Positions 1 to 60,700 of a stretch of 64,000 nt of DNA are shown piece by piece. The stretch's first letter is position 1. Every line of letters starts with the position of its first letter. The position numbers were made by a program, and so were the translations under genes. The notes under the pieces are model-generated. The model saw nothing but the letters and a program-made list of their open reading frames with translations. It ran no database searches and was not told the DNA's origin. Source of the stretch: Asterochloris sp. CNOR1 (lineage: Eukaryota > Chlorophyta > Trebouxiophyceae > Trebouxiales > Trebouxiaceae); assembly GCA_963969365.1 (NCBI GenBank), contig OZ017754.1, positions 1,240,001-1,304,000 of the forward strand, given 5' to 3'.

Positions 1-3000
1 CATGCCTTACTTTGGTCTTCAGGTAATGCATGCAGCCCCTGCCAGCGGCGAGCTCAGGTTGCACCCTTGCATCTGCTGTGTGCGCCTCTTGCCAGGCCAC
101 CCACTGCTCCACACTGCTCTGCGGTGTCTGCTGCCATTTATGCCAACCAGTCTTGTCATCTCTGTCTGTGTACTGCCCCGCCAGGCCATCAAGAGTGCAG
201 ATGGACTTGGGTGATATGTGTTATCGTTTGCAGGCCATCAAATTCACCGACGAAATGGATCTGCCCGCCAGCATTGTGGAGCAGCTGCTGGAGGCAGCTA
301 AGGAGGCGGCTGCTGCCCCAGTGCCTCTCATGCCCCGGCAGTCCAGCCCTTCCTCTCAGTCTGTAGGTGAGAGCCTGCAGCAATGCTGTGCACAGCACTC
401 CTCACGATTGTTGTTCACACCTGCGTGAGCTGCCGTGGGTGAGTTGCCTCTCACAGCCATGTCTGTAGGAGCCTCTTCACCCCCTGCCGCATCTTTTGAG
501 CCATGGTGCACGTGAGTGTCGCTTCTCCAGAGCCCCTGCCCGTGCAAATACCCTCACAGAGGAGTTGCAGTTCTGCCCGGCAGTGTCATCACGTCGCATG
601 CATGTCTCTCGGTGGATGATTACCCCTGCAGGTGGCATGCCTTCCCCTTGAGACTCTGTGGCATCTGGGCCATGATCTGGTGCGATGTGCAGTCCTGGCT
701 GGGACCTAACCCTGCAGAGTTTGTCAAGGAGCATGAAACCTCCTAAACCTGTTTTGGATGCATCCAAATGTGATCCCTGCATCTTGCTGACCTGATTCAT
801 GACTTGCACTTGCTGTACTACAGACACTGTCAAGGAGGAGGGGCTGCTGCATGGTGCTGTGGGCCTTCTGAGGGCGCAGCCACTGTTGCGCCTGCGAGAC
901 CGTTACCCTGGCGCCTTTGCGGGGTCAGTGGCGGCCCTGATGGCCACCAGCCGCTACACAGGGCCCACTGCCCAGCAGGCGATCAGCGAGTGCTTCGTGC
1001 TGACGGCGCTGCGCATGATCAGGCCGCCCTCACTGGTCAGGGCACAGGTGCGATCTTCCAGGCCTCGTGTTCTCGAGTGGCTGTCTGCCTACCCGGTACT
1101 TTCCTGTGTCTGTGTCCTTGCAGACCCCCCTCAACCACGGGCCCCCTGAACAGCAATCCTGCTGTCACTTCTTGTCTAGCATTCACTGTGCGGGAGAGGC
1201 AGGCATGTCAGTGACTTGAATATCTGTCAGCCTGAGTGCTCTGCCCCTTCTGCCATCACTGCACACATTGCAAGTCAAATGAAACGTTTGTTCTGCCTGC
1301 AGGGCCAGTACCCAGCAGGCATCCAGCAGCTCTACTCCAACCTGCTGCAGCTGCTGTCCCCCAGCCAGGGGCCGGCATCTAATCTGCAGGGTCAGCTTCA
1401 CTGGCGCTACGCACTGATGGCCAACTCGATTCTCATGTTTCTGCTGCCGCCCCCCAACGCCCAGGTCGCTGCGCAGCTGATGCGCCACTGCCTCAGCCTG
1501 CTGCTGACCCAGCAGATCAGCCAGCAGTCCATTGGCATGAGCGGGGTGCTGTTCTTGCTGCGGCCTGGAGCCCCCTGGCGCAAGGTGGGTGACTGTGGCG
1601 CTGCACTGCATGGCATGCTGCTTGGCCTGCCAAGTCCCACATGGCAGGCCATCAGTATGGGCAGGATGCAGCTGCCTGGAGGAGCCTGGACCCAGGCAAG
1701 CTTCTGTTAGACTGCTTCTTTGACACCTTGCCCTGCGCTCTTTGTTGGCAGCTATGGGGCAGGCGCCTGAGGATGCCACTCTGTGTACTGGCAGACGCTG
1801 CGCAGCGCAAGGAATGGCTGCAGCTGCGTGGTGTCACAGCCGCAGCCCTCGCAGTAAAGCTGTCATGTGGCCTGGCTGCCCAGAGCAGCTGACAAGTTGG
1901 ATGCCCTGCAGGATGAGCTGACCCAGGCTGTGGAGGTTACCGCAAGGGAGACCATTGCGGGCAACACAGCCTTTGGAAAGAGCCTGCTAGAGCAGCTCAG
2001 CCACTCCCACCCCAACACATCTGCAGGACAGGATGCAGCGCCTCAATCGTGAGTTCCCATTCTGCCAGCAAGCTGCACAGCCCTGCCTGCCAGTGTCTTG
2101 GGCAGCATTCCTCTAGAGCTCATTTGCTGCCAGCCCACCAGCACACCCATGTCCTATAGTGGCCACAATTGTGTGGCATGCATGGCTTGCAAGGCACATC
2201 ATTTGTGGGCCTGCACGCTGCCAGCTGCTTTGTTGCTCCCCCTCATCTGGCTTTGCCATGACTCCCATGAGCGTGCATTGCCAGTGCCCTGTTGCCACAG
2301 TGCCTTCTTGTGGGTTGCTACTAGACAACATGGCAGAAGGATGCAGCAGCATATGCAATTCAGCGACCAAGTGCGACATTGCCTTGCTTGCGGGCTTCAC
2401 TCGAGTAGCTGCAGCATACACTGGCCCTGGTCCGCGGTCTGCTGCCTGGTACACTTGGTAGGCCCCTCATTCTGCTGTGTCTGCAGGCAGCTGCAGCGCA
2501 TGCTGGCCATGTCGCGTGACGATGCAATCGCCCGCAGCCTGGGCAGTTCTTTTGAGTATCTGCTGTCATGGCCTGCCACAGCAGACATCCCAGACTCGGT
2601 TCGTGACCAGACCTTCATCGTGCGGCATGCTTGGCTGGTCAAGGTGTGTTGCGATTCTGCCAGCCTGATGCCAGGCACATCAATGCAGGCTGCTGCAAAG
2701 ACCCTTGATGATGTTTTCTCGGATGCGCTTGCGGTGCACTTGGGCTGATGACCTTGTCCAGCATCGGGCAGACATCTCCTGCAGGCAGGTGCAGGGAGGT
2801 CTCACCGTCACAGGACGTGCAACAACCTGCTCAGGCTGCAGCTGCAGGCATCTGCTTCTCCAGACCTCTGTTGAGTGCTTCATTCTGCAAGGCAGCCATC
2901 TGATCTGATACCTGTCTGCACCCGATTTGTGAGCAGGGTCAAGTTGCGCCCAACAGGTGAGGCCGCCGTCCTTATTGAATGTGCTGAGCTAGTGCTGGTG

Positions 3001-6000
3001 CTGGCAGCCCTCAGGGAGGTGCTGGTTAATCCTCAGGGCACCTTGCTGGAGCTTGGACCATCTGAGCCTCTTGCTGAAGTGAGTGCGCGCTCACACAGAG
3101 CAGCCCCAAGGAGATCCGACCTGCTTTCAGCCTCCCTTGACAAGGCTTCAGCCATTCTGAGCTCTCAATGCTGATGTTTGTGCTGCACAAGTGTCAATAA
3201 AGGCAGCCCAGGCCGCAGCGCTGTCTGTCCTGACAGAAGCCGTTGCTTTTGAGCACCCGTCGCTGACCCATGCGTGCCCCCTGCAGGTGCTGGCGCAGGC
3301 AGCCCCAGAGGAGGTGCTGGCTACCTTGAGGGCGCCGCTGACGGAGGCGCTCGCCGATGTGGCCCAGGAGGCCGACAGGGGGCGCACCTTTGCTGCTGCT
3401 GAGGCGCTCGGGGGCCTGGTGGCCTCAGGCTCAATTTTTGCGCAGTCTTCAGGTGGGTTTGCTGGTGGCGGGGGTTTGTGGGAGGCCCAGAGTTGGGTTT
3501 GTGGTGTAGCAGTATATCTGACAAGTTCACCCTGAAGGAGGCAGAAACGGGTGGCTCTATTGCTGGCAGCCAGCTCTGTATCTGCACAAGTAAGTTTGGC
3601 ACAATAGAGTTGGCAGCTTCAACTGATCTTCTCTTCTTGTTTCTCATGGGCAACGACGAGACCAACTTGACATTGCAAGCTTGATGGGCAGTGCAGTGCA
3701 GGCAGCAGTGGCCAACAAGTAGCTCCTAACAATGAGGTCTACATTCAGGCAGCTGTTGCATTCAGTCCCCTGGCCTGCGGCCTCAAGATTCACCTTCCAC
3801 AGAGGCAGGCTTATGTACATCCCTGTTGTGCCGGTGGGGCCAAGAGCAGCTGGTATGCTTAATTGCAGCTCTTGCAGTCTAAAGCCCTTTGGCTAAGCCC
3901 CTCCAGGCTGACTGCTCAAACCATGCTCGCTCTGCAGGTAGCGGCACGAGTGCGTGGGACGTGAGGCGCCCCCGTCGCCATTCCAGAGCCCACAGGCACA
4001 GCAAGCCTGCTCTGGGCTGACTGCATGGCCATTCTTGCCCTGCAGGTGATGGCGAAAGTGCCTGGGACACCTGGGTGCGGCCTCTGCTGTCTAAAGCGCT
4101 GGGAGCAGCCCCGCTGGACCTGCTGGAGCCGTGGTCCGTGGCAGTGCGCTATTCGGTCAATGGGCTGGCAGTGTCTGGTCACCCTGGGCTGGCTGAGGTG
4201 CTGGATCTGACATTGGAGGCAGCGCCAGGTAGGCGCTGCAGCCTGTAGTATCCAGTATGTGACAGTGTGCTACGCCGTTGATGGATTTGCAGTGGGCGGG
4301 CTCAGGTGCTCCCACCAGGTTGACTCACTGCCAGCAGACCGTCGGTATTAATTTGTCAGCCTGGTGTTGACAGCAAGCCCTCTGACTGTGCTGCCCAAGC
4401 TGACTGAGGCACAAATCATCTCCGGTGCCTGTGCTGTGTGCTCATGGTACAAGCAGCACATCAGGGTCTATGAGATGCAGGGTGCACCTTGCGCTGGTCG
4501 GGCAGATTGAGTCTCCAGAGGCTTGCTCAGCCCCTGAGGTGGATCAGTGTAGTGCTTGCGGAGCAGGTAGCACAGCAGCCGTCATGCCACGCCTGAGCCA
4601 CTTTGAGCAGGTTGTGAAGGACGCCTGGCCAAGCTTTTGCTTGTGCTGCTCAGTCCTTTGCTGCAGTTTGCAAGTTGGGATTTTGTCACTTGCTGCCAAT
4701 GCAGGCAGCACGGCGGCCATGATGCGTCGCCTGAGCCACCTGGGGCAGATTGTGGAGGAACTGGCAGCCCTGGGGGTCACAGGGCTGGGCACAGTGGACA
4801 ACACGCGCCTGCAGGGTGAGGTCACCTGCTGTGGTTCTGATCAGATGCCACGCAAGACTGCAGCTCTAGGGGTCATAGGGCTGGCAATCCTAATGATCAG
4901 ATGCCACGCAAGACTGCAGCTCTAGGGGTCATAGGGCTGGCAATCCTACCCTGCAGGGTGAGACTGCAGCAACGATCATGTGCCCTCAAGCGGACTGGCA
5001 ACTTTGACTGCACATGGCTGGGCACCATCAACAAGGACATGCCTGCAGCATAAGTTGCTTGTCGGCCGCTCTGCTGTCGGGCTGGGCGCTGCAGGCTCGA
5101 GGTTGCATGCCTGCTAGCGACCTGATGGCAGTCAGTAGCCTTGGCCTTGCTCTTACAACATCAACATGGGCACTCGTGTGCGCAGTGCACCCTCTTGAGC
5201 GGCAGGCAGCGCAACGGGAGCTTTCCAGTCTGAAGTGTGGACCTGTTGTGTTGCGCACCTCAGAGGCAGAAACATCGTTGCTGCCCGCATGTGCGCCTGG
5301 TCCTGACTGCGCATGCACTTGCAGTGCTGCATCTGAGGCCCATGCTGCCAAGCAACCACTGCACAGCACCACACTGCTCCTCATGAGGCCTCCTTGCTGC
5401 ACTGCAGCCTTGCCTGGGAAGGTGCTGATGCCTGTGTGCCACAGCTTTTTGCCAAGCAAGGGCTTGCCCCTCCTAAACTCGTTGGTGGCTGCCCTGCAGC
5501 CTCGCCCAGCAAGGTGCTGATGCCCATGGTGATTCCTCGCCGCAGCATTGTTCTGGGGCGGCGCTTCCAGCGGCGCCTGCTGTCTGAGCTGCCGCAGCAG
5601 ATGGAGCACTCGACCGAGACGCTGCGGGCTCGTGCCAGCTGGTGAGTGAGTCTGGAAGCCCTGCGTGGGGTCCTGCCGAGAGCAGGGCTGCGTAGCCGCT
5701 GCAGGCTGTCAGCACCTGCAGGACTGCCCAGGTGTGATTCAGTGCAAGGTGTAGCCGGTCCTGATGGAAGGTCCTGAGCGGCTGAAGCCTCTTGTAGCTG
5801 TGGCGCAAACAGTCCAGGTTGGCCTGATCTGGCCTGCATGAGCACAGCTGGTCTGACGGGGCCTGTTTCCCCTCCTGTGGCGGTCTGTGCTCTCCTCAGC
5901 TTTGCAGCACGCAAGCTAAGATCCCCCTGCCCACTGCTCTGCAGGGGTGCAGCTGTTCTGGTGGGTGTCCTCCTGTGGCAGCCCCCTTGCTCCTCTCCAG

Positions 6001-9000
6001 ATGAGCAGAGTGGCGCCCTCACGGCAGCAGAGCCCCAGCCAATGGAGCTGGATGCTGCACAGGCTGACGACGCCATTCCTCGTGCGGAGGTGGACCACTT
6101 CTGCAGCCTGCTAATAGATGGCCTGCAGGTGTGCTCAGACCCTGAACCCACCCTAGCCTATCTGTTGAAAGCCCCAGCAGCCCTGCCCCAGCTGCATGCG
6201 GCTTGGGCGCAGCACCAACCCCTCTGCAGTGATTGTGAAGTCTGCTGGCTTAGAGTCCTGCAGGCATGCTCAGGGATGCCTGTCAAGCATTCTAGACTTG
6301 CCTGGGATGATGTTCAGAAGCCGAGAGAGACAGCTTCTGCAGTCTGCAGGTGAAGGCCCTGCAGGTGTAGGGACAAACAGAGCTGGAGCACAGCCCTCAG
6401 CATCTTCTTGTCCTTCACTCCCTGGCCGCAGTTTTCAGCATCAGCTGCATCAGGCTCTCCCAGCCGCTGTTGCTGACTCCCTGGTGCATGCCTGCAGGCT
6501 GGCGTGGCTACCATTGCACCTGCTCCCGAGGGGGGTGAGGCTGCAGCTGCATCAGCTCCTAGCGAGGGGCCCGATTTCACTGCCGCCGTGGCCAAGATCG
6601 GCTTTGCGGTGCAGTTCCTGCGCAACGGCCTGGGCAACTGGCAGGGCAAAGTGCTCATGCCAGTTATTGTGGGCATGCTGCCTCATCTACTGCAGGCGCA
6701 GGTGGGTCAGTGCCTCACGCTTGCACATTGGCTGCAAGCAACAACAAATCGACCAACACTTCTGGGCTTCAGGTGGCAGCCTAGTTTGCCCTTGGGCCCC
6801 TGCGCTCAGGCCTAACTTGCACGCAAGTACATCTTATACCAGTTTGTCTATGACCAGTGAAAGCCGCATTGGCTGCAAATCGCCTGTACTTCCTGTCTGT
6901 TGACTAAAAACCTGAGCCCATCCTGAAGCTGCTGCTCATGGCATGACATGAGCATGCCAGTCTCCTGCCAGGTGTGTACATTGCTATTGCAGTGCTGTGA
7001 ATGCCAGGAGCTGCATCAGCTCAGGCTGCACCTGTCTCTGTCTACCTTTGCTCACATGGAAAACCAGCGTCCACTAAAGTGCTGTCACACTGCTGACCAT
7101 GCCTGTTGGTGCCTTGCAGGAGCTCCAGCAACCCCAACTGCAGCAGCTGTCCCTGGGAACCAAGTCGGCGGTGGCCTTGCTAAAGTACCTGCCCCTGAAC
7201 CCCAGCATCTTGCCACAGGTGCGGCTTGCAGCAAAGCAATGTAAGGCCGCGACTCCACCCCTGCTACATTGAGGCAGGCCAGTGGGATTCCAGCATCGTG
7301 TCAGGAACAGACCTTTGTTGCTCACCTCTGGTGCGTCTTGTGCACAAACCACCTTGCCTGTGTCTCCAGATCTTGCTGGCCTGTCGTCTTGTGATCTTGG
7401 CACAGCTTTGCTTACCGAAGCCTTAGTGTTTGTGCAAAATGGCCGGCCTGCTGGGCCAGGTGGCAGCTGACAACAAGAAATGGCAGCGCTGTTACGAAGT
7501 CCTGTTGTCTACGAAAGAACTGCTGGAAGGAGCCCCTGCGGCAAGCAGTGTTATTCCTTGAAACCACAACGCCTACAGCAGGAACCGAAGGCCCAGTGCA
7601 AGACTCTGCTTTCTTGAGCCGTCCAGGCGACTGCCCTGTTGGGCCAGCCCCTGTGGCACGCCCTGCTCCTCCCAAGCGGTGGCTGCAAGCAGAGGCTCAA
7701 AGTCTGAGCCCAGTGCAGGCCACTGGATATAGCCCCCTCACTGCCCCGTAAATAACAGCCCTGCTGGGGCCGTGGGCCCCCCTGACAAGCCCGGGTCCTT
7801 CCCAGCAGCTGCTGGAAGTGGAACCTCTGTTTGCAGGCCCAGCGCAAAACAGTGCCTCAGAGCCCCCTCTGGTGCCCTGCAGGTGACAGCCCTGCTGGGG
7901 CAGGCCTCACGCGGCGAGCCGTGGTCAACCCGAGCAGCAGCCCTGGCCTTTGCCCAGTACTTCTGGTTCCGCCACTGCTTCCTGCTGGGGCCCCGCCAGT
8001 CAGGCGCTCTGCACGACATGGTCGTCAGCATGCTTGCAGACAAGAAGCTGGAGGTGCAGGAGCTGGCAGCTGTGAGCCTGTCAGGTGGGGACACAGTCCA
8101 GCGGGGCTAACACCCCGCAGTTGACTGCCTGTACAGCAGGGAAAAAGGGGGCTGGAGCCATGGGGTTCGTGCGGGGCAGACATTGCATGAGCTGTCAGCC
8201 TCATGCCTGTCAGAAGAGTGCAGTCTTTCTACAGTTGCACCTGGAGCACTGCCCTGAAGCTGTCTGCAGCCAGCAATGTATGTCACACGCCAAACACACA
8301 GAGTGGACAAAGCAGGCAGACAACTGTGCACTGCTGGTGACAGGCTGCATGACTGGGGTGACCTTGATCCCCATCCACCAATGTTGGCTGCAGGACTGCT
8401 GAAGGGCCTCCCCCAGGATCAGTTTGAACAGCTGCGCCAGCGCTTTATGCAGAGGGTTGATGAGCTTTTCCCAAGCAAGCGGCAGAGAGTTGCCAAGAAC
8501 GCGGGCGATGCAGGCAAGCTGCCCTGTGCCAGGCAGGCAGCCAGTACCATTGGCTGCTTGTCACACTGAAGGGGCCAGACCTAAAGCTAATTGCTCCATA
8601 TTGTGTATGAGTGGGTATTGCCCAATCAATCTGCCTGCCAAAGAATGGCGGCCTTCCCTGCCAGCCTGTGTCAGGCACCTTAACTCTGTGCCTTGTTCAC
8701 AGACTCATCCCTGCTGGCCAGAGCTGAGTGCCATGCTTTGAGCTGCACTCTCATGCTTCATTAGATGTCAAGTGCCCTGCCTGCAGGGTCCCAGGCAGCA
8801 CCCTCTTTGACTGAGAAGAATGCTGCAGTCCTTGGTCTGATGTCATTTGTCTTGTCCAGCCCATATGAGGTGCCCCTATGGCTGCCAGACGTGCTGCTCA
8901 GCCTGGTCAAGGCTGCATCACAGCCTGCGCCTGTGAAGACTACTGTCAGGTGGGCAACAGGGTAGCACCTTGACTTGGGGACAGCACCCTTTCTTGCAGA

Positions 9001-9204: not shown

Positions 9205-9369
9205 CAAGCATGCCCTTGAACATTTGAACTCACTGTCTGGCTCCGACCTCCCCACTGCAGGACTTGAATGACTGCATGAAGTGTGCAGCGTGCCTTAAGT
9301 CTCTTGTTTTGTGGGTGGGCTGCCAATGGAACAATGAGATAGGCGCCACGGGACGGCGCCACCAGATGA
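9205..9369. other. Short convergent intergenic gap, PA200 and NUP42-like
   Basis: There are 165 bp between the PA200 stop codon and the stop codon of the gene on the other strand. It must hold both 3' ends. I see no TGTAA polyadenylation motif placed clearly for either gene. Confidence 0.6.
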
Positions 9370-11440: not shown

Positions 11441-11460
11441 GGGACTGACAATTCATGTAA

Positions 11461-12396
11461 TCATGGCAAAAGCAGCACTGATTGATGCATAAGCAGCGCT
11501 GCACGCACATACTTAGCAAGCAAAATTGGGGGATGGTCATCAAAGAGGTCTGTCAAAGTCTGTTCTGGCGTCTGGAATAGGTGGCTGTGGGCGTTGCGCA
11601 GGTCATCGAGCTGGGGACAGTGCAGCAAGATGTGTTGCTCGTCTTCTATGGCGGTTGCTGATGTGCAGAGGCGGCAGGTCCTCTCGTGTCTGGCTTCTGA
11701 TGTGTAGCGGCCTGTCTCAACTCTCAGCCTGTGGCTGCTGCAGCGGATATGGGCCATTGATTTGCGCAGTCTGTAGCCTCTGATCTGCTGGATGTAAGGT
11801 TGCGTGGTGTACGCTGCGCTGAAGCCGCGCATCTGCTTGTACGTTGCCACGGTGCTGTCTGAGTTCTCCGCAAAGAGCCGCTCATGGCGCTCTGTGCTGG
11901 GGGCGCTGGCAGGCCTCCCGCGGGCCTGCAAGGCAGCAAATCCAGCAGGGGTACGCAGGAGCCTAAGGTTTTCCACATTGGGTGTGCCGTCAAACATCGC
12001 CCAGAACAGTGGGTTGTCAGATGCAGTGCGAGTGACATTGCAGATGCGCAGCCTGAACTTGTCAACTTGTTTTTGCCAATGCACAGCAAGCGGGTATCTG
12101 CCAAACTCAGCCAGGGCAATCAAGTGGTGCGTGGTGCGTTTCACTCCCAGCAGGCCACGTAAGAACTGGAGGTGGACGCCTTCCAGCACTTTGGTGACTG
12201 TGCTGCTGGCATCATGGTGCCAGAACCACACCTCACAGCCATAGCTGAGGATGGGCAGCACCAATGCATTGAACAAGTTGCACATGCGCTGGGGGTGCAC
12301 ATAGCCAAGCTGGAAGCACCTGCGGCGCATGGCATGCATGGTCAAGGTTTTGGCATGCTGGTCAAGGTCAACCCTCTGGATCTGAAGCTCGAAGTG
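11461..12396 (-). mobile_element. 5'-truncated LINE (non-LTR retrotransposon) reverse transcriptase fragment
   Basis: The frame is open from 12396 down to the stop at 11461. It contains the end of a reverse-transcriptase thumb typical of LINE proteins (NALVLPILSYGCEVWF, then LRGLLGVKRTTHH) and a C-terminal zinc knuckle (CRLCTSATAIEDEQHILLHC, a C-x2-C...H-x4-C pattern). The catalytic palm (YxDD) and endonuclease are absent. The copy is therefore a dead-on-arrival 3' part, stopped upstream by TGA at 12397-12399. No poly-A tail or target-site duplication was found by eye. It lies exactly between two divergent genes that both seem to lack their first exon. Confidence 0.86.
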
Positions 12397-12580
12397 TCAT
12401 GCAGCATGCATGCCCTGGAATCAAGGCTCTGTCGCAATCTAGATGTGAACTGAGAAGTACCAGGGCACATTCCTTCCGCCAGAGATCCACACTTCCAAAT
12501 GGCTTGAAGGTCTGTCTGCAGCAAGCTGGCGGGCATGCTGGTGGGAGCCTGATCTCAGACACTTGAGGCATGCACTGCAG

Positions 12581-16700: not shown

Positions 16701-19700
16701 ACAATTCCACACCCATCAAGCGGCGCACAGCAAGGTCAAGGAGCGTGCTGGATGCCCAGCGTGACTGCCCAGGCACACTGAACTTCAGAGGTGCTGAACA
16801 AGGCGTAACCCTCACCTCCATCATGTCGCGTGTGGTCAACTCCAGCAGCACCATGGTGTCGTCCCGGTACACACACTCATCATAGGACCCCGTGGTCACA
16901 GAGTCGTTGCTGTCAAACATGCTGCCCGCCGGGGGATCGCAGAAGAACTGCTGCGCCGCCCCCATGAGCATGTCATTGTGCAGCAGAGTGAAGGGGCGGA
17001 AGCGCCCGCGCGTGATCAGCACATTCTTCTTGCGCAGGGCCTCCTGGGGGATCTGCAGGCGCCCTGCAGGGGGGAGAAGAGGGCCATGGTCATATGCTAT
17101 AAAAACACATTGATACCTACTCATGCCAAGGGCCTCATGGGAAGTCTGCAGGCGCCCTGCACAGAGGAAGTAAAAGCAAGGGCCATCACAACGTATGCGA
17201 ATGTCAACAATTTGAGCATGGAACAACTGCTCTTTGAGCAAGCTGCCTTTGGCACATTTCAGATTGTACAGACAGTCTTGTGTCGGGAGCAAGGTTGCAA
17301 CCATGACTTGTGCGCGCACGCAATCAACACGTGCTTTTCTAGCGTGGCCTCCCTGGAGATTCGCAGGCGCCCTGCAGGGGCAGCAGCTGCAAGCGACCTG
17401 CACATGCCTAAGAAGGTCAAAGGTGACAGCACCAGCGCTTCAGACTAAAGGTGACAGCTGCTGCAGGCACCTGGCTGCAGAGAGGCGACTTCTCTAAGTC
17501 AGGCAGCTTCGCCTGCAGGCACACTTGCAGATGGGGTCCGGCTGAGCCTAGCAAAAGCTCAGTGCCCTGGCATGACATCACGGGTGCTGTGCCGACGCAG
17601 ACTAGCCAGTGTAGAGCAGCACTCCACTGCATGAAGCCCCACCTTGTGGGTCAAACAGCGCTGCATCACACAGGTTCTTCTGCACGAGGCGCAGCGCTGC
17701 GACCCTGTTGTCCACATGCCTAAACTCGGGGCCGCTGAAGTCAAGGAGGTCAACCTGCACCGGGACTGGACTGGTCAGAGTGCTGCGGAGCTTCACAAGA
17801 GTCAGGGGGCCCAGGGTTGGGCATTGGGCAGCCTCAGCCCAAACCCTAAGACCATTGAATGACAGGCAGTGTTTGGCACCTAAGCAAAACCCTCCCTACT
17901 GTTGGTCCAGGAGGAAACACATATTGGTCTGGGAGGAAAGCCATGAGGGAATGCTAATCCATCTGCTACACGGCTCACCTGCATGCAGCTGCGACGTCCT
18001 CTGTCCAGCAGGCGCCGAAACCATGACACAACTTGCAAGATCAACATGGCCAGATGCCAGGAAGACTTGGCAGCTAAGGGACCTGGCACCCTCGAGGCAG
18101 CAGATATGTTTGTCATTGACACTGCTCACCTGCATGCTGTTGCGGGGCAGGTCAATCAGCAGGCCATTCGGCCAGGGCAATGTGCTGAGAGCTGCTGTGG
18201 CCACTCACAGCGGTGTTCTTGTGCCTGCGGTTTAATGGCACCACGCTGAACACCACCATCTGACCTGCATGCGGCTGCGAGGCAGCTCTTCCAGCAGGCC
18301 CGAGATGATGTCCTGGTAGCGGGAGCCCTTGGTGAGGGCCCCGTGGATCAGGTTGACGCCCAGCACACCCAGGGCCTCTTGCTGTGCTTGCGCAGTGTTG
18401 TCCAGCATGCGGCAGTGCAGCATGATGGTGTTGGGCTCCCGCTGCCTGCAAGCAGGGTGACATTGCACTACAGTTTAGAGTCAGGTGACTCAGCCAAGTG
18501 ATGACGCCATTGGGGCTCGCCCTGCAGCCTCTGCAGCCCTTTGGGGGGTTTAGGTTCTTGAGGTCTTGTGTTGACCAGGCTGAGGCCAGTCTGCAAGATG
18601 GTAGTAGGCTCCTGCTGCTTGCAGGCAGAAGGCATGAGGTCTCAGTATCCAGCATGCGGCTGTGCAGCATGAACTTGCTGGACTCCTGCAACCCGCAGGC
18701 AGGAGCGCAGACACTGCACGGAGGCCTGCTCTGCTCAGCGTGCAGTGCGCCATCACAGCTAGATCAAGCTGCATCCAGGCAGAAGGTGCGACAGTCTTGT
18801 GGCCTGGGCCTGTGCATGGCACTGGTGGCTCAGCACGGGCATTGGCTTTTACACAGTCTGGCCATTGTACAAGGAACCCGTCCTGGCTGCGGTTTCACTC
18901 ATTCCTGAAACCCCGGCACAACGCAAGCGAAGACGCACACTGAGCACAGCTGGCGCACCACAAGATGCCCAAGCAGAAGACCTCCGATGCAGACTCAAGC
19001 TGTGAGACTCACCCTGGACGTAGCTGGTATTTGAAACCCAGCCAGCCATGGCACTCGTTGTCACGGTTAAACGCCTTTGCCACCACAGTGTCGGCAAAGG
19101 CAAAGAAGGCCGTGTTGTCCCCTCGAGCGTTGCGCAGTGTGAGGTTGCAGGACAGGTACTCTGAGTCCAGCATGGCTTCCACTCTGTCGCGTGTCACATA
19201 TCTGCAGGCAGCAGCTGGCATTGCATCGTGCAGTTGGCTTTCCAGTGCAAAGTGTGCAGGGGCAGGGAATGTCTCAGTACCGTGGCAGCTCATCTGTCAA
19301 CTTACACTTGCAGGCAGCAGGGGGACTTATCAATGTAATCAAGTCAGCAACAGGGCTGGCGGGTGCTTTCTGGTAGGGCAAGTCTCTGGAGGCCCCAACA
19401 GAGCCAGCACATCATTGCAAGGGCGACATGCAGCTGCAGCCATGTTTGGCAGGAGGCAGATTGGTAGAAATGGCAGCGCACATGAAGGGCAGCTGCAAGA
19501 TCCATTGACACTTCGCATGGAAAACATGGCTGAGGCAGCAAGCATTTCTTGTCAAGCAACCCAGTCAAAGACACCCATCTCAATCAGCGAGCTCTGGCCT
19601 CACCTGTCCGTCTTGCCATACTCAGCATCCGAGATGGTCATGTCGTATGCTGAGATGGACTTGGCAATGGTGCCTGCAGAGCGTCAGCTCCACTCAGTTG

Positions 19701-20520: not shown

Positions 20521-20522
20521 AA

Positions 20523-39201: not shown

Positions 39202-41358
39202 ATGCTGCCCACGCATGATGGCAACAGGAGGGCGCCTCGGCGCAGCACATCATTGTTGCCCACCTACCTGCGGCGCATCATCAAGCCCAAGCAGATGGAT
39301 CTGGAGTGAGTGGCGCTCTCATCAGGGCCCGCATTCTGCTGTGTATCTGCTGATGCTAGCACCATGTTCCCAGTCAGCAGCTGCCTGATACTGCTGCTTG
39401 TGTGCAGGTACACATCCTGGCTCATGCTGCAGCTTTGCACTGCCCCTAAGACCGCGTGAGTCGCAGCTACTGTCTCAGATTATGATCACAGCCTCCAAGG
39501 AATGCGAAGCCCATACGCTGCCATGCACAAATATGCTGCTGGACCCCTGTAGATGGCACTCCCTGCTGTGCTGTAGGTACCGACACACCTCCTACCACAA
39601 GCAGACCAAGAACCAATGGGCACGGGACGACCCAGCCTTTGTGCTGATCTGCTGCGGCCTGGTGGCAACTGCAGCTACTGCTTACTGCCTAGCGTGAGTG
39701 ATCTATGGCTGCCCTGCCCCGCGGGACGCTGATGCTTGCTGAATGCAGGGGCCTCAGCCTGCTCTGCATGCACTGCCCATGGCCTGCTGAATGCGTCTGC
39801 TGCTCCTTCTTGGACCTTGAGCATAACCCCAACAGAGCGTGAGCCACGGCAGGCAGACTGCCCTGTTCACATGTCCTTCTTGCCAGCCAGGCACCATGCT
39901 ACTGCTTTGAAGTCTTCGCTGTGGAAGGTGCTGACGGCCCAACCTTCTGCAGATTCAGCCACTCCTTGTGGCGAGCTGCAGCCACAGTGGCGTCTGCAGT
40001 GCTCGTGGACTTCTTGGTCGTGGGATGGTTCATTTGCACAGCTGGCTGGTGAGCTGCAGCTGTGCTTTTGTTGCCCAGGGACGGAGAGAGGCCCAGTCAT
40101 GCTGGAGACCAGGCAGGGGTAGCGCTGCCAGGGTTGTGACAGAGCATGCCCACACCTGCATGGCTGTGCTTTGCCCTGCCAGGACTCACACTGTAGCGCA
40201 TCAGCGTGCAGATGCTCTTGCCCCTCTGAGCTGGGCCTTCATGCACACAAGCTGATCCATCCTGCTGCTGCAGGTTTTGTGCAAATCGGTTCCTGCGCCG
40301 GCAGCAGCTGCACAGCCATGCCGTGGAGCAGCACGTAGAGTGGTGAGCGGCTGCCGCTTCTAGCATCTCCTTGCCATGCTTCCCCCGCCCTGCTCTGGTG
40401 GCCCCAGCCAGAGTGGCTGTGTCACTTGCGCCTTTCTGTCAGGTGCCTGCTGCAATTGGGTATCTGGCACCTGCAGGCGCATAGGCCTGTGATGTGGTCT
40501 CCACTGCCAAATGGCGTGCTGACTGTTGCCTGCAGGATGTACGCCTTTGACGTCCACTGCAATTCTTACTTTCCCCTCTTCATCCTGCTCTATGGTGAGG
40601 CTGCCTACAAAACTTTGGCGGCCCCACCGACACTGCACACCTCATCCAGCAGTTGCTCAATTGGCAGCCTGCCACAGCCTGTGAAGGCTCCATGATTGAC
40701 GCTGCACACACGGCACCTTTGGTAACCCCGCTCGCTGACATTGGCTGACACTGCATAATTCACAACTCTGCAGCTGCCCCAAAATGTGGACCTACCTGCA
40801 TGTAGCACGCTTGCAAAGACCAGCAGGTGACATCTGTCTCACCCTGGCCCTTGCAGTGGTCCAGTTCATTGCATCACCAGTCCTATTGCATCGCAACTTC
40901 CTGTCAACGGTCCTGGCGAATGCTCTGTACGGCGTCGCTCTGTCCTATTATCACTACCTCAACTTTCTTGGGTACAGCGCGTTGCCCTTCTTGCAGCATA
41001 CAGAGGTCAGTTCCTGCACACTGTCATTTTCTTCCCCACATGCAGCATATGAAGGTCTGCCACCTGTGCTCATTCGCTGCCTGGTGGTGTGACATGATGT
41101 GGTAATGCACACTGCCAACACCAGCCACTTCTGACAATACCACCTTGCCCCTGAAGGCCTGCGTCTGACCTGTCTTCTGCTCTTTGTGATTGCCTAAGCC
41201 TTGACCCACCATGTGCAGCACCTTGACACTCATTTCCTGACTGCTCTGCGCTGCAGGTGTTCCTCTGGCCAATTGCAGGCATTCTAATAGCTGTCCCTAT
41301 AGCAATACTAATGGGGTTCAACCCCGCCAGGTTCACGCTGGGCATCTACTTTAGTTGA
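39202..41358 (+). CDS. UNC50: UNC-50 family inner nuclear/Golgi membrane protein
   Basis: Multi-pass membrane protein of the nuclear envelope and Golgi; in animals it is needed for trafficking of receptor subunits, and its role in algae is unknown. Eight exons close exactly: 39202-39305, 39408-39455, 39577-39693, 39953-40048, 40274-40342, 40536-40594, 40857-41005 and 41257-41358, giving 247 residues (the human protein has about 259). Signature blocks are YLRRIIKPKQMDLEYTSWLM, YRHTSYHKQTKNQWARDDPA, FLRRQQLHSHAVEQHVEW, MYAFDVHCNSYFPLFILLY and the hydrophobic HRNFLSTVLANALYGVALSY. Membrane segments are visible in exons 3, 4, 6, 7 and 8. The ATG at 39202 is the first in frame. Introns contain no obvious echo copies. 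Confidence 0.97.
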
Positions 41359-41464: not shown

Positions 41465-48285
<6,821 letters not shown>

Positions 48286-51700: not shown

Positions 51701-54700
51701 AGCTGCCCTTGAAGCGGGTGCCCTCCTGCAGAAGTGTATTGAGCATGCCAGTGAGATCAGCAGAGGGCTGCACCCAGCGTTCAGGGCAGAGTGAGACAAG
51801 CACCGCAGGACCTGAGGACATGCGAGTCAAACGGGAAACCCCTCTGCTGTGCAAGGGATGTTCAGGGGCCAAGGCAGCACCTGCTGAAGCCAAGCACCCA
51901 ACATGCCATAGGCACGCATTGCCCTGCTCCCTCAAAAGCCCTTGAGCGCAGAATGCAACATTGTGCAGTGCTTCAAGTAGCAGCTCCTGGGGGAGGCTGG
52001 GCGGTCGGTTTGTGCTGTCCCATGTGGCTGCAGACATCTGCTGGGCAGCCTGGGCACAGGTGAAAGATGTGTTGGAGTGCCCCACCTGCATGTGTGTGAT
52101 GGCATAGGTGGAAGCCTCTGCCAGCGCATACGCACGCCCGGTGTCTCGCATCTTGATCCGTTGCAGTACCCTCCTCACAGCCTGCATCACAACAGGGACA
52201 TCACTTACATGAATGAGCATCTGTGGCGTCCCAGCATAGAGCGTCACCCACTTTCCTGTCAGGGAGCTGGCGTTGTTTGTACAGCTTTGCCATTTGTTTT
52301 TTGCTCATGCAGCCAACACCAGCCACCTGTATCATATCAGTTGTGCCAGTGCAACAGCTTGCAGGCGGCAGGAATCTGCGTGTGCAATCAGACAGAGTGC
52401 TGTTCTGGATTCACCCGCTGAGGACTGCTGGAGACTAGTTGCCGAAGAAAAGGACAGCCTGCATCACAACCTGAGCTTGACCCTGCTAACTCAATGAGAA
52501 CCACCTACAGTCATTGATGCACGCATAAATGCCAACAAAGGACATTGCAGCCTCCCAGTGCAGGCTGCATTGCTGGTCATAAGTCTGCCACAAAATGCAG
52601 AGCACTCACCGAGGACTGCATGTAGTGGTTGATGCCCTCCTGGTCCGCCCACATGGACGAATCCCGCAGCCGTGCAGCCTCGTCCAGGCTGAGCTGGTAG
52701 CCCAGCTCCTCGTGCTCCTGCTCCAGCTCGCTGAAACGCTTGCTGCTGGTGCAGGAGGGGGAGGGCAGCATGCAGCGCATGGCCTGCAGCGGCAGTGCAG
52801 GGGTGCGGGAGGGGCAGGCCAGCATGCAGCGCAGGGCTTCCAGCATCTGTGGGGGAGCGTCAGCAATGGCAGAGCCCTCTGCCAGAAGAGGCTTGCCCCT
52901 CTGGAAAGTCACAGGTGTACAGGTCATGCAGCAACCCTGTGCGCTTTGGAGGCATCAAGCAAGCACCCTGGAGTCACACAGGCCTGCAGGGCCATCAAGG
53001 TGGGCTGCCGCTCTGTACATTCCAATCCCACAACAGTCTACAAGGCGTCCCATGCCAAGATCGCACCTGCAGCATCTGGAAGCTGTTGGGCGCCGCAAGG
53101 GTGGCCTCCCTCATGTTGTTTCGCAGGCCTTGGAACACGGCATAGGTGGGGAACCTCTTGTGCCCCTCTGCGGCCAGCGCCTCCTGCGTCTTCTGGAACA
53201 GCTGAAAGCTAGCTGTGGCCTCGATGTCTCCACCTGCACATGCAGGGAAGACAGGCTCAGAGCCTTGCTGCAGCACACTGAATAGTCAAGCCTGAATAGT
53301 CAAGCTGCAGCACGTGGAGACTACAAGATGGATTTGCATTGTTCTGGCACACCTGGCTCTCAACATCGGTGCCTGAAGCATGCCTGAAGACTGGCAAAGA
53401 AACACGCACCACACAAGCCACCTCCCAGCTGAGGATTGTGTCCTTCAGGGAGCAGCAGCTTTGCCTATGGCTGGGGACTTTATACAGCTTCAGAGTTGGC
53501 CCAGCTGTCAGAGTATCACAGCCAGGCAGCTTAGCCCCAGGCAAGCCTGCACCGTGACTAAGCTCGTCGCAGCCTCTTCTTTGTGCTCAGCATGCAGGAC
53601 CTCAGGGATCTGAGAGTCTGCCCGTGCATCAGCAGCCAGTCTTGAGCCTCACCATCTGGCGAGTGCCAGCAAGCACCAGGTCAGGCACCCATGGCTTGCT
53701 TTTGCACAGCATACAGGGCTCCATGGGCAGGCAGTGCTGCCTCAAGCACACCCTTGAAACCTGTGAGCAGCGTCACCTTCTGGCGCAGCATGCAGGGCGT
53801 CTGGGCCAGGCAGCTTTGGGTGGGGGACCCGGTCCTTGATGGCCGAGTCCTGGAGGTCCACCGCCGACTCCAGAATCCCGCCTGTACGGTCGCACATCTT
53901 GACAGCAGGCGGGGAGGTCCAGGCGGGCTCGCGAGGGAAACCTCCGCTTGGCTCTGGTGGTGGCACCACCATCTCAAGCTGGGCCTTCTGGGCAGCCTCC
54001 TGCCTGCGCTGCCTGCGGCGTCTGACCAGCAGCGGTGCCAGGACCAGACCTGCAGGGAGAGGCCAATCGTCTCTGCACCTCTTGAGTGTCTGATGTCTGT
54101 GCCAAGCAGGCCCCAAAGAGATGCAGTGCCACGCTGCCAACCCCTACCACGTGCAACAGGCAGTGAGGCACAGCCAGACGTGCAATAAGTACACTCAACC
54201 TGTATTCAGGAATGTTCACCATCATGCAGTGGCAGAAGAGAGGCATGTCAATCGCTGTACCGCTTAAAAGAGAGGCAGGCATGGGGGGCACAGCAGGGGA
54301 GCTCACCCACTGCCCGCTGCGACAGAGACTGTGCTTCGTGATCAGCAAAGAGGGCGTCTCAAGGTACAGGCAGGCTGCTGCCAGACAGGCTCACCCACTG
54401 CCAGCAGGCTGCCCACCACCACAGCAGGGACAGCGATGGCGGCCGCCGGGACCCCTCCTCCGCCACTGGGAGCTGCTGCTGCCTGAGCCTGGTTGAGGGG
54501 GGCTGTGTTAGCTGAGTAGAAGAAGATGGTGATGGGCCAACCTGCAAAAGGGAGGTGTACGCTGTTGGGCAGCGGAAAGCAAGGTCTGCTGTCCAGGCGG
54601 CCGCTGCCAGCTTGGCATCTTGGTGCTGTGCTGCAGGGGCTGCGGGGCCCTGCTACTGTGATTGGCCAGCCTGCACGCCAGAGGTCCTAGTGTTGGGCAG

Positions 54701-57700
54701 TGCATGAGCACAGGGCTGCTCTTCATGGGTCTCAGATGGTCCAGCCTGCACTGAGGAGGCATTCACCTGGTGGACAGTGCTCAAGCAGGTCTGGCTGCTG
54801 ATGCAGCCCCCAAGCTGGCAGCTTGTGCTCAGAAGGTGGCAAGCTGCTCAGCTGGCGCCACAAGATCATAAGTCTGAGGCTGCGGACCCTGGGCAGACAG
54901 CAGTAGGGTGCTAGTATGACCCGATGACGATGATCCCGCACAGCGGCAGCGGCGGCGGCGGCGGCTGCTGGTCTGCAGCAGACATGCTGCCTCACCTTGC
55001 ACGCCCATGAGAGTCTGGACGTCTGACCCAACCCCGCCTCCCAGCAGCTGCAGGCTGACATCAGCCACCTGACTGACGTGCAGCAGCATGCTGATGTCGG
55101 CAGACACGCCGCCTGCAGGCCGGCATTGCAATTTGAGCACATGGGAGCAGACAGGCAGTATGCAAAAGCATACTGGCACCAGCAGAGGCACCTGCCAGGT
55201 CACCGTTTCACCTCACAAGCAAGACTTTGTACAACAGCATTTTGGTGACAGCAGAGGCTGTGTCTTCTCACATTCAGTGTCGCACTTTGTCAACAATGTG
55301 CGATTGGATCCGCTTCACATCCTTAGAGGTACAGCATCTAAGGAGACTGACTGGGGCAGAAGCACCACCTGGCAGTGATGATGTACTGATGCCCACATGG
55401 AGCCCACAGCAGCAGCACAGCACAGAGCAGTGCGGGTGCACAGCCCTGTGCCGACACAGACAGCAGCTGTCCGCCATGTGCCCAGTTGGGCAGGCGACCT
55501 CTCCCCAGACTGCACCTGGCTACTAAACTGACAGCAGCGGGCATGTCCACCACAGGCAGCTTCTCAGGCGCGTGCGTGCCCTGACAGGCGGCCTCTCACC
55601 AGACTGCAGCAGCGCCCTATGCCTGGCAGCAACAGGCATCTCCTCAGGGTAGTCATCCAACGGCTGCTGGGGTCGGATCTTGGAGCGGAGGCTGACATGG
55701 GCGCCAACCTTGTGCGGGCTGTGGAGGAAGCTGTCGCCGATGGGGGCAGTGGTCCCCCCCAGGTGGCGGCCGCGCAGTGCCTGTGCCTCGTTTTTGCGGC
55801 GCTGCTCCTGCACAGGCTGCATGCTCTCCGTAAATGGACAGCAGCCACAGTGACACGAAGCCTGGCAGTTGCCAGCTGCACAGACTGTGGACAGGCATGG
55901 GCGCAAGCAGGTGCTGTGCCTGATGGGCCTTCAACAGTGGGCAACTCCTCAGGTGACAGCTGCATCATGATAGCTGGCAGACTGGGCTTGCTGTGCACAC
56001 TTGGATGGCACAAAAGCTACAGGAGTAAGCACACGATCAGGCACTGACACAGCAATGTATAGGCAACTAGACAGGGGTTAGGGTAATGATCTGCACTCAC
56101 AAAGTTGCAGCAAAAAGAGAAAATTACATTCAGCCGCCACACATGCACACAGCCAGCCAGGAGCATACAGTCCCAGATGCCACCTCTGCAGCTCTGGCCT
56201 GAGGAAGCACCGCAACCACGGCCCCGCAAGCATTGTGCGCGTTTGCAGCGCACTTTCCGATACCAGCTGCAGCAGTGCACCATATCAGGCTGCTGGGCAC
56301 ACATGGTCCCACCTGGATGTGCCCCCAGATGCCACATGCAAGAATGCACCAGACGCCTTCAGGTTGATACCTGATATCTGCAGCAGTGTACATGCAACCC
56401 TCATCTGTAGAGCTGCACAGCATGTATGCCCGTCTGCCTCCTTACGCAGATCACCCTGACCCCGGTTGCCACTAGCACCTTGCTGTACATCTGCATCCTG
56501 GACCTCCTGCCCACAGAGCCCATAGGCACGGGCATGGAGTGCGCCTTGCACCTTGAGCTCCCTGTAGTGCTCATCGTTTGATCCCAGCAGCGGCTTCTCT
56601 ACCAGATCCAGCAGCTTCCCAAGCATCCCGCACATCTCGGGCAGGGGCGAGCTGCCACAATCCACCTGCATTCTCAGCTCCTGCGTCTATTAACTGCAGA
56701 GCCCCACAAGGGTGCAACATGGACTCTGGCCCCACCCACCTGCATTCTGAGCTCCTGGTCTCTCTCATCTGCTGACTCCCAGAGGCGCTGGCTCCAGCTC
56801 TCACTGCTGGTCAGCGCCTGCTCCGCCTCAGCCAGCAGGTCATGCTGCTGCTGGTCATGGCTGCGCCCAGTGACGAAGGAGTCCTGCGTGATGCGAGCTG
56901 TGGGCTCATCTGTGGCGCCGTCTGCCTCCCCGGCTTGGTGCTGGCGCCACTTGGTGGGCTCCTGTTGCTGCCACTGTTGGCGCCAGGGTGGGAGATCCTG
57001 GGAGGGGGTGGGGGTGCCGTCCTGCAGGCAGTGAGGCACAGTGGTCTCTTGGCAGCCTGCATGGCATTCACCGTCTCCGCACCACTGCACTGCACCGGAG
57101 GCCAGCCTGGCCACTTCCCCAGCATGCGGCATCTTAGCAGCGTGTCTCGCTGCGTCTGTGGCTGCCACGGTGGGCCCCTGAGGTACCAACTACAAGGCCA
57201 GTGACCATTAGACATAGGTGGCGCGCTCTGCATTCTGGCCCTACCTGAGAGGCCAGAACCCACAGCTTGTCATCAGCATCGAAGCTCTGCATCTGCAGGA
57301 GCACGCAGTCAAGCATGTCAGTACTGGCGCTTGAATCCAAGCAGACAAGGACCTGACAGAGCCAGGCGCAGTTATGGCTGAGACTCAGCCTGCAAAGGAG
57401 CCAGATGGGGGAGGGACCATGCACCTTGTGGTGAGCAACTGAGTCAAATACAAGCTGCCGCTGCCCAGCAGCGCTGCCCTACATCAGACGTCCAAACAGG
57501 ACAGGCCAAGACACTGGTAGGCCAGCTGCAGTTTGTTGGTGGCACATGTCACAGCAAGCCCACCGCTTGACTGTTGTCCAGGTTCAGTCCCTGGGCTGCA
57601 CCAAACCGCAGCAGGGGCGCCTTGTCGGCAGGATGGATGGACACGGCAGACTCCAAGCTGATGTGATCGCCATGATGCTCTGAAAAGCCCATGCTCTCGG

Positions 57701-60700
57701 ACAGCACCTGCAGGTAGGGGAGGTCACACTGGATTGCACAGTGTGATGATTGGTGCCCCAGCAATCAAGAGTACCTACAGGCCAGCAAGAAAGGACTATG
57801 GCAAAGCAGGTACCACTCACACACACACACAAACACACAGACACCCCCACACACACACACACAGCTCAGCTGCCCTGTTCTGAATCGCTCATGCTCCCCT
57901 CGCTGGCCAACACATCGTGCTGACGACACAGTAGACACACCAATGCTCAGAGGTGCATGAAGGCCATGCTTTTGAACAGCTTTTGCTGGCCAGCAAGTGA
58001 GGCTAGAGGCAGTGCAAGTTCAATCTATGCTCAGCTCTGCCTGAATACGAGGACACAATGCCCTGAAAAGTCCACAATGTCAGATAGAGCCTGCAGGCCA
58101 GCAGGAAAGCCAGAACACAACAAGGACACTGCTGCTCAGAGGTGCCAGAAATGCTCATGCTCCCAGACAGCTCTTGCAGGCTAGCAAACAAAGCTGACAC
58201 TACAGCAGATTCAAGCAGCTCAGCTGTTGCCCTGCCCCTCAACAGCCCATGCTCCTGGGCAGCACCTCAGGCTGGCGCGCGAAAATATAGCACAGCACTA
58301 ACACTACAGCTTAATCCTGCCTGCTCATGAGATGTCCATGGGATCACACACGGCACCTGCTGTCCACCACAATTGATAGAGCCTTCACCTGTGTATTGCT
58401 CTGGGTAGTGCTTTGACAGGCCCCTCTTTCCAGACAGCCCAAACAGGCAAGCACTACCCTGTACAGCTTGAGCCCCGCAAATTTGCTGTGATCAGTGTGC
58501 GACCAACACTCAGTGGGTTTGCGGGGCAGCAGCCCAAGGCGATGGCTGCCCAGAGTACTGCCCAGCCCCTTGAATCGCACAACAAAGTGCCCCTGGTCGC
58601 AGTGAGTCATGATGATGGTCCGCTCAGTCACCTCAGCATCATCTGGCACCACGCTGCTGGCAGCATCAATGGCCAGGGCTTGGTCAGCCTTGTCGCGGCG
58701 GTGGCTGACAGCCTTGCTGCTGTCCGCGTGGCCCGCATGGTGGGGCTGCATCAGCTCTCGCCCTGCATCCTGGCTCTGTGTGCTAGAGCCTGACCCCTGG
58801 GGTTTCCCATCCAGCAGCTGGCGCCCAGATCCTACACGTTCAATGCCGAGTCCAGGCTCCACAGGTTGGGCACCCAGCAGCCTGCGCCCGCCCAGGGGCA
58901 GTTCGCTGGTCAGATTGAAAACAGAGGCTGGCAACTGGGCTGCCTGGCCGTTCAGGGAGTAAGACTGTATCTCTGTCAGCGTGACGCCCAGGAGGCTGCC
59001 CGCCTGCACCAGGCAAAGGAACAACAGCTTGAGAAAGGTGCATGCCTCCGTGCACATAGGGTGCATAGAAGGCTGAACTTGCGCCAGGTGCTATGCTTGG
59101 CCCTTGCCGTGGCTACAGTAGCAGCCACAGGCTAGCAGGCTGCAGCAGGCATCTGGCAGTTGTTGCAGGCAGGAATCGTCCGCTGGGGAATGCAGTGGCC
59201 TGCAGTCTATGACTGGCAGGTTGTTGCCGCGCTGGACACCCCTCTTCGAAGCAGGGCTGCAGCAGCTCAGACAGCCCACAGTCTGTGAAGGGGTCAAGCA
59301 CTTGCCCTTCACTTTCTGCTGTGCCGTGTCCCAGATCAAGCAATTGCAGCCTGTCACTGCCTGGGTACAACATTACTGCACTGCCGCACCGACAGCGGAG
59401 GCAAGCACACACACAGGAGGTGCTTGTGCAACAGCTGCTGTGTACAGGCATTTCCTGAAGCATGTGACAGAGAGCATCTGTGCGAGCAGTTCTGCACAGC
59501 GCCTGCTGTGTGGCGTGTGTGGTCTGGGCGAGGGGATCCAGCATGCAGCACTGCAGCAAGGGGACCAGCAGCGTTGCACACTCACCCGGAGGATAGAGGC
59601 GATCAGGTCCATCTGCTGTTCAGCAGTCATGGGCAAGCTGCTTGCATTGCTGGCTGTCACCCTGGCAGTGACTGCCAGCCCACTCAGATTTGTCACCAAG
59701 CTGGGGGCTGGCATCTGCTGCAGCCTGGCAGGCACAGCTTCTGCATTGAAGGAGTGCCCTATGGCCGCACTCACCACCTCCACGGTGACCACGTAGCCTG
59801 CAGGGGGTGGCAACTTGTCAAGAGGCAGTATCATGATTATCATGGCACTGCATCATGTGCACTATGCATCCCAACTGATGGCAGCACCTCAGTGTGGGCA
59901 GCCTTGCTCTACAGACTGCACCTGGTGCAGCAGCCAGCCCTTTTCAACCGGGGAGATGGCGGCAGCGCTGCCAGGGGCTGCAACGTGGCTCAGACAGCGC
60001 GTGCTGTGCAGTGTGTCTGGAATAGTTCCCATGCAGAGTGACCGCCACAGGGGCCCTGGCAAGCACCAAGAAGCTGCTGCCAGAGTTGACAGCAGCCAGC
60101 CCACTTGCTGCCGTCACGCCCGTGGCCAGCCTTTTATGGTGCTGCCTGACACCTCAACGCTGGCAGGGCCGCCCCGCACCTTGCTGAGCCACCGCCTGCG
60201 TGTACAGCTGCACAGCATCCTTGAAGAAGGAATTCAGCTGCGCTCTGACCGTGACGCTGTTGGTGTTGATGAGCCACAGCCTGCAGCATCAGCAGCCAAG
60301 GCTGTCACAGGCCTCCCTGCACAAGGCGGCAGCCTGTCCAGAGAAGCAGGCTGGGCATCGTGCAGGAAGCTGCTGGGTGCACCAGGACACCTGCTGCAAC
60401 GGGTCTGCCAGGCAAGCAACAGATGCCTGATGGAGGCTCCAGCTGCCAGCAGCGGTGCACTGAGCTGGCCCTGGCTGATTATGCTGAGCTTGTGTGCTCA
60501 TGTGGAATGCCGTGGCCGCTTTGTCCCAAAGCCGTAGCCCGCAGGCTGGGGTCAACATGCTGCTATGATGGGAGATTGCCACGGTGGAGCGGCGGCTGCC
60601 ATTGTGGGGCAGGCTGCTTAAGCTCCAGTTCACCTGATGCTGATCATGACAGCAGGCCCTGCTGCTGAGGGTGGTGCCAGTGCCAGGCCCAGGGTGTCAA

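Follow-up and report, generated by a model that had tools for sequence, protein, structure and literature searches.

Decayed copies of exon edges in the introns of Asterochloris sp. CNOR1 probably stem from small tandem duplications across splice sites

Introduction

Why would the introns of a green alga carry, beside their exons, worn copies of those exons' own ends? The question is raised by a stretch of 64,000 nucleotides from Asterochloris sp. CNOR1 (assembly GCA_963969365.1, contig OZ017754.1, positions 1,240,001 to 1,304,000; hereafter the window), in which a first-pass annotation described introns of seven genes as holding degraded tandem copies of the adjacent exon edge and its splice site. 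We call such copies echoes. Their existence was confirmed in the window and extended to a sample of the genome, where roughly one exon edge in nine keeps a decayed copy in the adjoining intron. The echoes are anchored at exon edges and lie on one side of them, yet they belong to a general background of small tandem duplications. Very probably, they are the decaying second copies of ordinary duplications in which a splice site happened to be included, so that the spare copy was spliced out.

Exon-edge copies lie on one side of the exon

We tested exon edges in the window and 25 further pieces of the genome (L005-L029), giving 26 pieces and 314 kb. Each edge was represented by a fixed probe of 45 nt of exon and 8 nt of intron, and counted as positive if a match scored at least 16 within 25-335 nt; exons shorter than 60 bp and edges too near the end of a piece were left out. 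Among acceptor edges, 38/375 had a copy upstream, while the same probes found a copy past the exon, on the wrong side, in only 3/375. One unrelated locus yielded 0/375 at this score and 2/375 at a score of at least 14. Donor edges gave the mirror image, with 47/368 copied downstream and 1/368 upstream, so that 85/743 edges were positive on the expected side. The two sides are thus far from equal, and the annotated arrangement (acceptor copies upstream, donor copies downstream) holds throughout the sample. The edges of LysRS and BIO3-BIO1, whose exons were modelled by homology, behaved in the same way (6/50 on the right side vs 0/46 on the wrong side; 9/50 vs 1/46 at a score of at least 14).

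Probes from the middle of exons were almost never positive (0/165 and 2/165). Random positions within introns were positive in 21/401 and 23/401 cases, about 5% per side, and random positions outside gene models in 9/359 and 5/359.

In the window itself, 38 of the 160 predicted edges tested reached a score of 14 and 21 reached 16, using a wider target of up to 535 nt and no wrong-side control. These 21 edges are spread over the region named PA200 (6), 14-19 kb (3), BIO3-BIO1 (4), 28-36 kb (1), the ISCU region (1), LysRS (2) and the gene at 51-58 kb (4). Across the sample, 80 exons have echo pairs, of which 27 hold two or more and nine hold three or more. The copies had been described as ranging from identical to barely visible. 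The weakest are marginal: the echo at position 179 scores 11 at a lag of 49, against 7-9 in its own 20 shuffles and a threshold of 14, and the exon beside it is not part of the ab initio gene model.

Local direct repeats are abundant throughout the genome

A scan for ungapped direct repeats at lags of 25-400 found 46 segments scoring at least 18 in the window, compared with 2, 0 and 0 in three far-lag controls and 0, 0 and 0 in three local dinucleotide shuffles. The 25 pieces of 10 kb from elsewhere (250 kb, 11 contigs) held 7.5 segments per 10 kb (range 1 to 24 per piece), with 0.12 per 10 kb in both the far-lag and the shuffle control, which makes the window typical of its own genome. As a yardstick, 50 kb of E. 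coli contained three pairs, one of which consists, judging by coordinates, of two 5S rRNA genes. These densities were called without a low-complexity filter; where the filter was applied, it removed 14/297 pairs in one set and 21/377 in the set behind the class, frame and anchoring counts below. Two simple repeats stand in the window, (CA)n at 57814-57863 and (GCTGTG)n at 21561-21600, the latter directly past the donor of BIO exon 21366-21556.

Echoes are not a property of seven genes only, as exon-intron pairs were present in 24/26 pieces. Nor do their lags fall into the two step clusters proposed (77-95 and 109-157 bp). Apart from exon-exon pairs, we counted 29 pairs at lags of 50-75 bp, 49 at 75-100, 33 at 100-125 and 26 at 125-150, followed by 13 and 16 in the next two 25-bp bins, which amounts to one broad mode at 50-150 bp plus a tail reaching 500 bp. 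Pair identity runs from 100% down to about 65%. Assembly error was considered as a source of the copies and ruled out, since most pairs are less than 85% identical.

At the shortest lags, 25-50 bp, there were 0 exon-intron and 8 intron-intron pairs in all pieces. Such pairs are few, and splice sites lying so close together may not be tolerated. In one stretch of piece L011 (8477-9316), local duplications lie densely nested; among them are a complete pair of 128 bp at 91% identity and one of 95 bp (lag 96, 93%) within a predicted exon.

The copied unit spans the splice junction

We examined what was copied in 170 pairs with one exonic member. Of the upstream copies (80), 84% match exon sequence within 15 nt of, or across, the expected edge; for the downstream copies (90) the figure is 78%. 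Similarity also continues into the intron beyond the splice motif. Acceptor pairs (n=69) had a gapped score of 13.7 there, compared with 9.7 in their own shuffles (p=3e-8), and donor pairs (n=72) scored 12.2 vs 9.6 (p=4e-6); comparison with the flanks of other echoes pointed in the same direction. The intron flank was thus copied together with the exon edge, and the unit spans the splice junction.

Complete head-to-tail pairs also exist. Defining these as pairs with a homology of 0.8-1.25 of the lag and at least 75% identity, we found 21, at lags of 41-130 bp (two rows come from one array in L009): eight intron-intron, four outside-outside, four exon-intron, four exon-exon and one exon-outside. 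The ratio of homology to lag, measured by gapped extension with a strict gap cost, had its fullest bin at 0.9-1.0 (13/69 strong pairs). Adjacent copies in direct orientation, with a homology about as long as the lag, were found among the better-preserved pairs, most exon-intron pairs being too decayed to show this. Sizes are mostly 50-200 bp with a fall-off above 125-200, as the lag counts indicate, the tail to 500 apart. The youngest duplication in the window, at 4838-4948, is an exact copy with one inserted nucleotide at the joint, which may be a trace of end joining; the other pairs are too diverged for their joints to be read.

Exon-exon and exon-intron pairs differ in the frame of their lags. 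Lags between two exonic copies were mostly divisible by three (48/56, or 35/45 with overlaps removed), while exon-intron lags were not (42/130, or 37/121). This difference lends support to the exon labels of our gene finder, and the intronic copies decay without a constraint on frame.

How one-sided echoes could arise

The following scheme would produce this pattern. Small tandem duplications of about 40-200 bp would arise across the whole algal genome. Where a unit covers an acceptor or a donor, the simplest protein-neutral outcome would be splicing at the outer site, after which the spare exon edge and its splice site would be left within the intron, where they would decay like any neutral sequence. 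With an acceptor-spanning unit, the spare exon head could stay only upstream if the protein is to remain unchanged; with a donor-spanning unit, the spare copy could stay only downstream. A copy on the far side would need duplication of the whole exon, and such copies are rare. One-sidedness would then follow from geometry and selection rather than from a directional copying machine. Splicing at the outer site, repair of paired nicks or staggered breaks as the source of the duplications, and intron growth by this means are our inferences.

Are splice junctions preferred sites?

The rival that comes closest holds that junctions are preferred sites of duplication, for instance through breaks coupled to transcription or splicing, and that echoes reflect a process of their own. 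Edges at junctions are positive about 2.1-fold more often than random intron positions (85/743 vs 44/802). When the 356 pairs were placed at random, 76 ± 10 exon-intron pairs were expected and 130 seen, whereas intron-intron pairs fell short (103 expected, 82 seen), as did outside-outside (102 and 48) and intron-outside pairs (7 and 0); exon-exon (40 and 56) and exon-outside pairs (29 and 40) exceeded expectation. After deduplication, the counts were 121 exon-intron, 66 intron-intron, 45 exon-exon, 43 outside-outside and 38 exon-outside pairs.

Part of this excess is a matter of detection. An exonic member decays slowly, and by itself this raised the detection of units with an exon edge 1.4-1.9-fold in simulation. 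The complete pairs argue against a preference too, as the exon-intron to intron-intron ratio among them is 4:8, compared with a birth expectation of 0.33-0.79 at lags of 50-140, although these numbers are small. The ratio over all pairs is 1.3-3.5 times the birth expectation per lag bin above 50 bp. Summed by hand over the lag bins inside predicted genes, about 59 exon-intron pairs would be expected, or 83-110 allowing for the detection advantage, and 121 were seen. This leaves a junction excess of about 1.1-1.5-fold after lag and slow exonic decay.

Some of our results sit badly with general duplication as the whole explanation. Simulations with uniform birth and neutral decay (six settings, using the lags of 28 short complete pairs and including territory without gene models) gave a ratio of exon-containing to non-exonic pairs of 0.42-0.53, compared with 1.46 observed. 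Conditioning on lag and decay shrinks the gap at junctions without closing it. Homology covers more than 0.8 of the lag in only 8% of exon-intron pairs, vs 45% of intron-intron pairs and 21-32% of simulated ones, and similarity on the intron side is weak past 15-25 nt in ungapped register.

We conclude that general duplication and slow exon decay account for most of the twofold junction excess, and consider a separate junction process unlikely. A modest preference for junctions may exist. The stronger version, in which junctions are hot spots through splicing- or transcription-linked breaks, form the main route of intron growth and have left the 1.1-1.5-fold excess as their trace, seems to us slightly more doubtful again. 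The first-pass annotation had suggested that duplication across splice junctions is a continuing process. The range of identities, from old to exact copies, bears out the continuity; specificity to junctions is not supported, as the same duplications occur inside introns, both at random positions and among the complete pairs.

Splice sites in echoes and other explanations

Another rival takes the echoes for working alternative splice sites, or for alternative exons in the making, that selection has kept. In junction-spanning echoes, AG is intact in 45/68 and GT in 25/51, so that the claim that most copies keep their splice site is right for AG and fails for GT, of which about half survive. Neither dinucleotide clearly differs from its flanks in identity: AG has 112/136 identical positions, vs 1183/1527 in the exon flank and 717/871 in the intron flank (0.82 vs 0.78-0.82), and GT has 73/102, vs 826/1046 and 539/690 (0.72 vs 0.78-0.79; p=0.10 and 0.16). 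As far as the sequence tells, echo splice sites appear to decay about like their flanks, with neither use nor purging visible. Purging of decoy donors had looked plausible in a first set (GT 46/68 vs 658/832 in the exon flank, p=0.03) and a stricter one (26/42 vs 406/498, p=0.004), and was rejected when the signal was lost in the larger set (p=0.10). The suggested creation of cryptic sites therefore holds only in the sense that AG and GT copies are present. The birth of alternative exons is argued against by the rarity of far-side copies, and whole-exon duplications or mutually exclusive exons, with both splice sites and frame, would match neither this rarity nor the frameless exon-intron lags. 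Selection for function is, in our judgement, very improbable.

We give still less credence to exon fragments inserted through an RNA or complementary DNA route, or to a dispersed element such as an introner. In ungapped register, homology extends further into the exon than into the intron, which would suit such an origin. However, the copies adjoin their own exon, are anchored at its nearer edge and include the intron flank, and complete head-to-tail pairs exist. The edge probes were compared with one random unrelated stretch of 310 nt, where none of 375 matched at the score of 16, and far-lag controls were near zero; no all-against-all search of introns was made for introner-type spread. Least credible of all is a resemblance due to chance, or to composition and splice motifs in common. 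The TGCAG-like intron end is found at many sites, and weak echoes, for example the one at 179, are borderline; for the strong class this explanation is already refuted by the same probes applied across the same exon, by the far-lag and shuffle controls and by the sparse repeats of E. coli. Duplication across splice sites, followed by decay, remains our preferred account.

Echoes and genes in the window

The main features are as follows (window coordinates and strand).
4563-4621 (+): acceptor echo of exon 4705-4815; partner 4701-4759, lag 138, 80%
4838-4948 (+): youngest tandem duplication, a 55 bp exact repeat with one extra base between copies, wholly within a predicted intron
5396-5432 (+): acceptor echo of exon 5500-5641; partner 5488-5524, lag 92, 86%
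6320-6368 (+): donor echo of exon 5945-6128; partner 6084-6132, lag 236, 71%
17121-17168 (-): acceptor echo of exon 16816-17063; partner 17028-17075, lag 93, 79%; extra copy at 17312-17380
18574-18629 and 18648-18703 (-): two acceptor echoes of exon 18265-18445; partner 18401-18456
22644-22758 (+): 58-bp tandem duplication inside a BIO3-BIO1 intron, 82%
23314-23346 (+): donor echo of BIO exon 23059-23186; partner 23157-23189, lag 157, 79%
23954-23992, 24065-24097 and 24166-24255 (+): graded array of acceptor echoes of BIO exon 24400-24575
24166-24255/24361-24450 (+): best pair of this array, 79% over 90 nt (51 exon, 39 intron)
24648-24705 (+): copy of the 3' part of BIO exon 24400-24575; partner 24508-24565, lag 140, 69%
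26695-26749 (+): donor echo of BIO exon 26428-26614; partner 26578-26632, lag 117, 76% (37 nt exon, 18 nt intron)
34482-34528/34796-34842 (+): repeat pair downstream of exon 34238-34563, lag 314, 74%; donor edge positive
38340-38390 (-): donor echo in the ISCU region, exon 38437-38556; partner 38428-38478, lag 88, 78%
45702-45732 and 45610-45642 (-): two donor echoes of LysRS exon 45844-45980
46624-46801 (-): 90-bp tandem duplication within a LysRS intron, 82%; its copy 46762-46799 matches the donor edge of the upstream exon at 47271-47308
46989-47027 and 47071-47094 (-): further donor-edge copies of LysRS exon 47271-47428
52802-52851 (-): acceptor echo of exon 52610-52783; partner 52748-52797, lag 54, 82%
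55491-55548 (-): donor echo of exon 55600-55807; partner 55585-55643, lag 94, 76%; edge score 15

The gene names ISCU (NifU_N), LysRS and BIO3-BIO1 were supported by homology or Pfam. The name PA200 was not: the chained peptide from window 1-8700 found no homologue by protein search, among PDB sequences or in Pfam, and the exons of this region hence rest on the ab initio model. Several of them are clear to the gene finder. The Pfam scans run gave no confirmation of the names PP2C, "cyanobacterial-type" and "receptor-like". An exon of an UNC-50 family gene (PF05216, E 6e-16), unnamed in the first-pass annotation, lies at 40739-41092 (+). At 11461-12396 (-) there is an intronless open reading frame of 311 aa that resembles the end of a fragment of a LINE-type (long interspersed nuclear element) reverse transcriptase, although a Pfam scan at 0.001 finds nothing in it.

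Genome and gene models

The assembly comprises 56.4 Mb in 21 contigs at about 58% GC, with TTTAGGG repeats at those contig ends that were listed. Its size, GC content and abundance of introns agree with those described for Asterochloris (56 Mb, 56-62% GC and 9 introns per gene; PMC6652019). For the chained LysRS and BIO3-BIO1 queries, the best named protein matches were from Trebouxia (48% and 47%).

Exons of LysRS (12, minus strand) and BIO3-BIO1 (15, plus strand) were taken from spliced alignment to homologues, BIO exon 21054-21258 being weak in this model. The remaining exons came from a simple self-trained ab initio gene finder with a raised intron penalty, as a lower one led to false introns; it predicted 418 exons in the 314 kb. 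Trained on BIO alone, it recovered 8/12 LysRS exons exactly, with 10/11 acceptors and 9/11 donors, among 13 predictions. With LysRS as its only training gene, it found 0/15 BIO exons exactly at the chosen setting and at most 3 at any setting tried. After self-training, it had 8/12 LysRS and 11/15 BIO exons exact, both genes then being within the training set.

Discussion

Duplications of this kind have been reported in several systems. An RdRp gene of potato gained a new intron through a tandem duplication that straddles the border between intron and exon (PMC4974935). The unit there likewise joins the 3' part of an intron to the 5' part of the exon that follows, splice signals being copied along, and an 83-bp tandem duplication inside an intron is also noted, as seen here. 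The potato case produced a new spliced intron, whereas here the spare copy was apparently left in the old one, and it is a single case, compared with the 85 edges of our sample. In Drosophila, some introns were gained through tandem duplication of AG/GY proto-splice sites (PMC2891723). There too, duplicated exon sequence ends up spliced out, but the unit lies within an exon and creates an intron, while here it spans an existing junction and the old intron would be lengthened. Existing introns appear only lengthened in our predicted models.

The size range, head-to-tail form and prevalence of the duplications resemble what patch-mediated break repair leaves in rice. Tandem duplications are reported there as the commonest insertions; they are enriched among mutations of 50-200 bp, and their share of events drops from 70% to 5% by 200 bp (PMC7971508). 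The rice events are recent and dated by an outgroup, and splice junctions are not the subject of the passages concerned. In mouse cells, small tandem duplications arise from fill-in and end joining at staggered breaks (PMC8355091), which would account for adjacent copies without long homology at their ends; those breaks were experimental, and the passages in question do not concern splicing. By analogy, our proposed mechanism would agree with plant break repair and its tandem duplications of 50-200 bp. A limited search of titles and abstract openings of open-licence PMC papers found none announcing that copies of exon edges next to splice junctions had been counted across a genome.

How much have introns gained? 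Of all bases in the predicted introns, 9.4% belong to a detected local pair and 4.4% to a copy whose partner is exonic; both figures are probably lower bounds. Median intron length is 512 nt with an echo (n=59) and 333 nt without (n=249). Growth of introns by duplication, as the first-pass annotation proposed, thus gains some ground as a probable addition of sequence, although longer introns also offer more target; the length difference is consistent with growth without proving it.

In this alga, small tandem duplications contribute measurably to intron DNA, beside transposable elements. Echoes resemble exons, which calls for caution in gene prediction. They also form a natural collection of decoy splice sites that can be traced through their later history, and since one member of each pair is held by selection, junction echoes provide a datable record of duplication.

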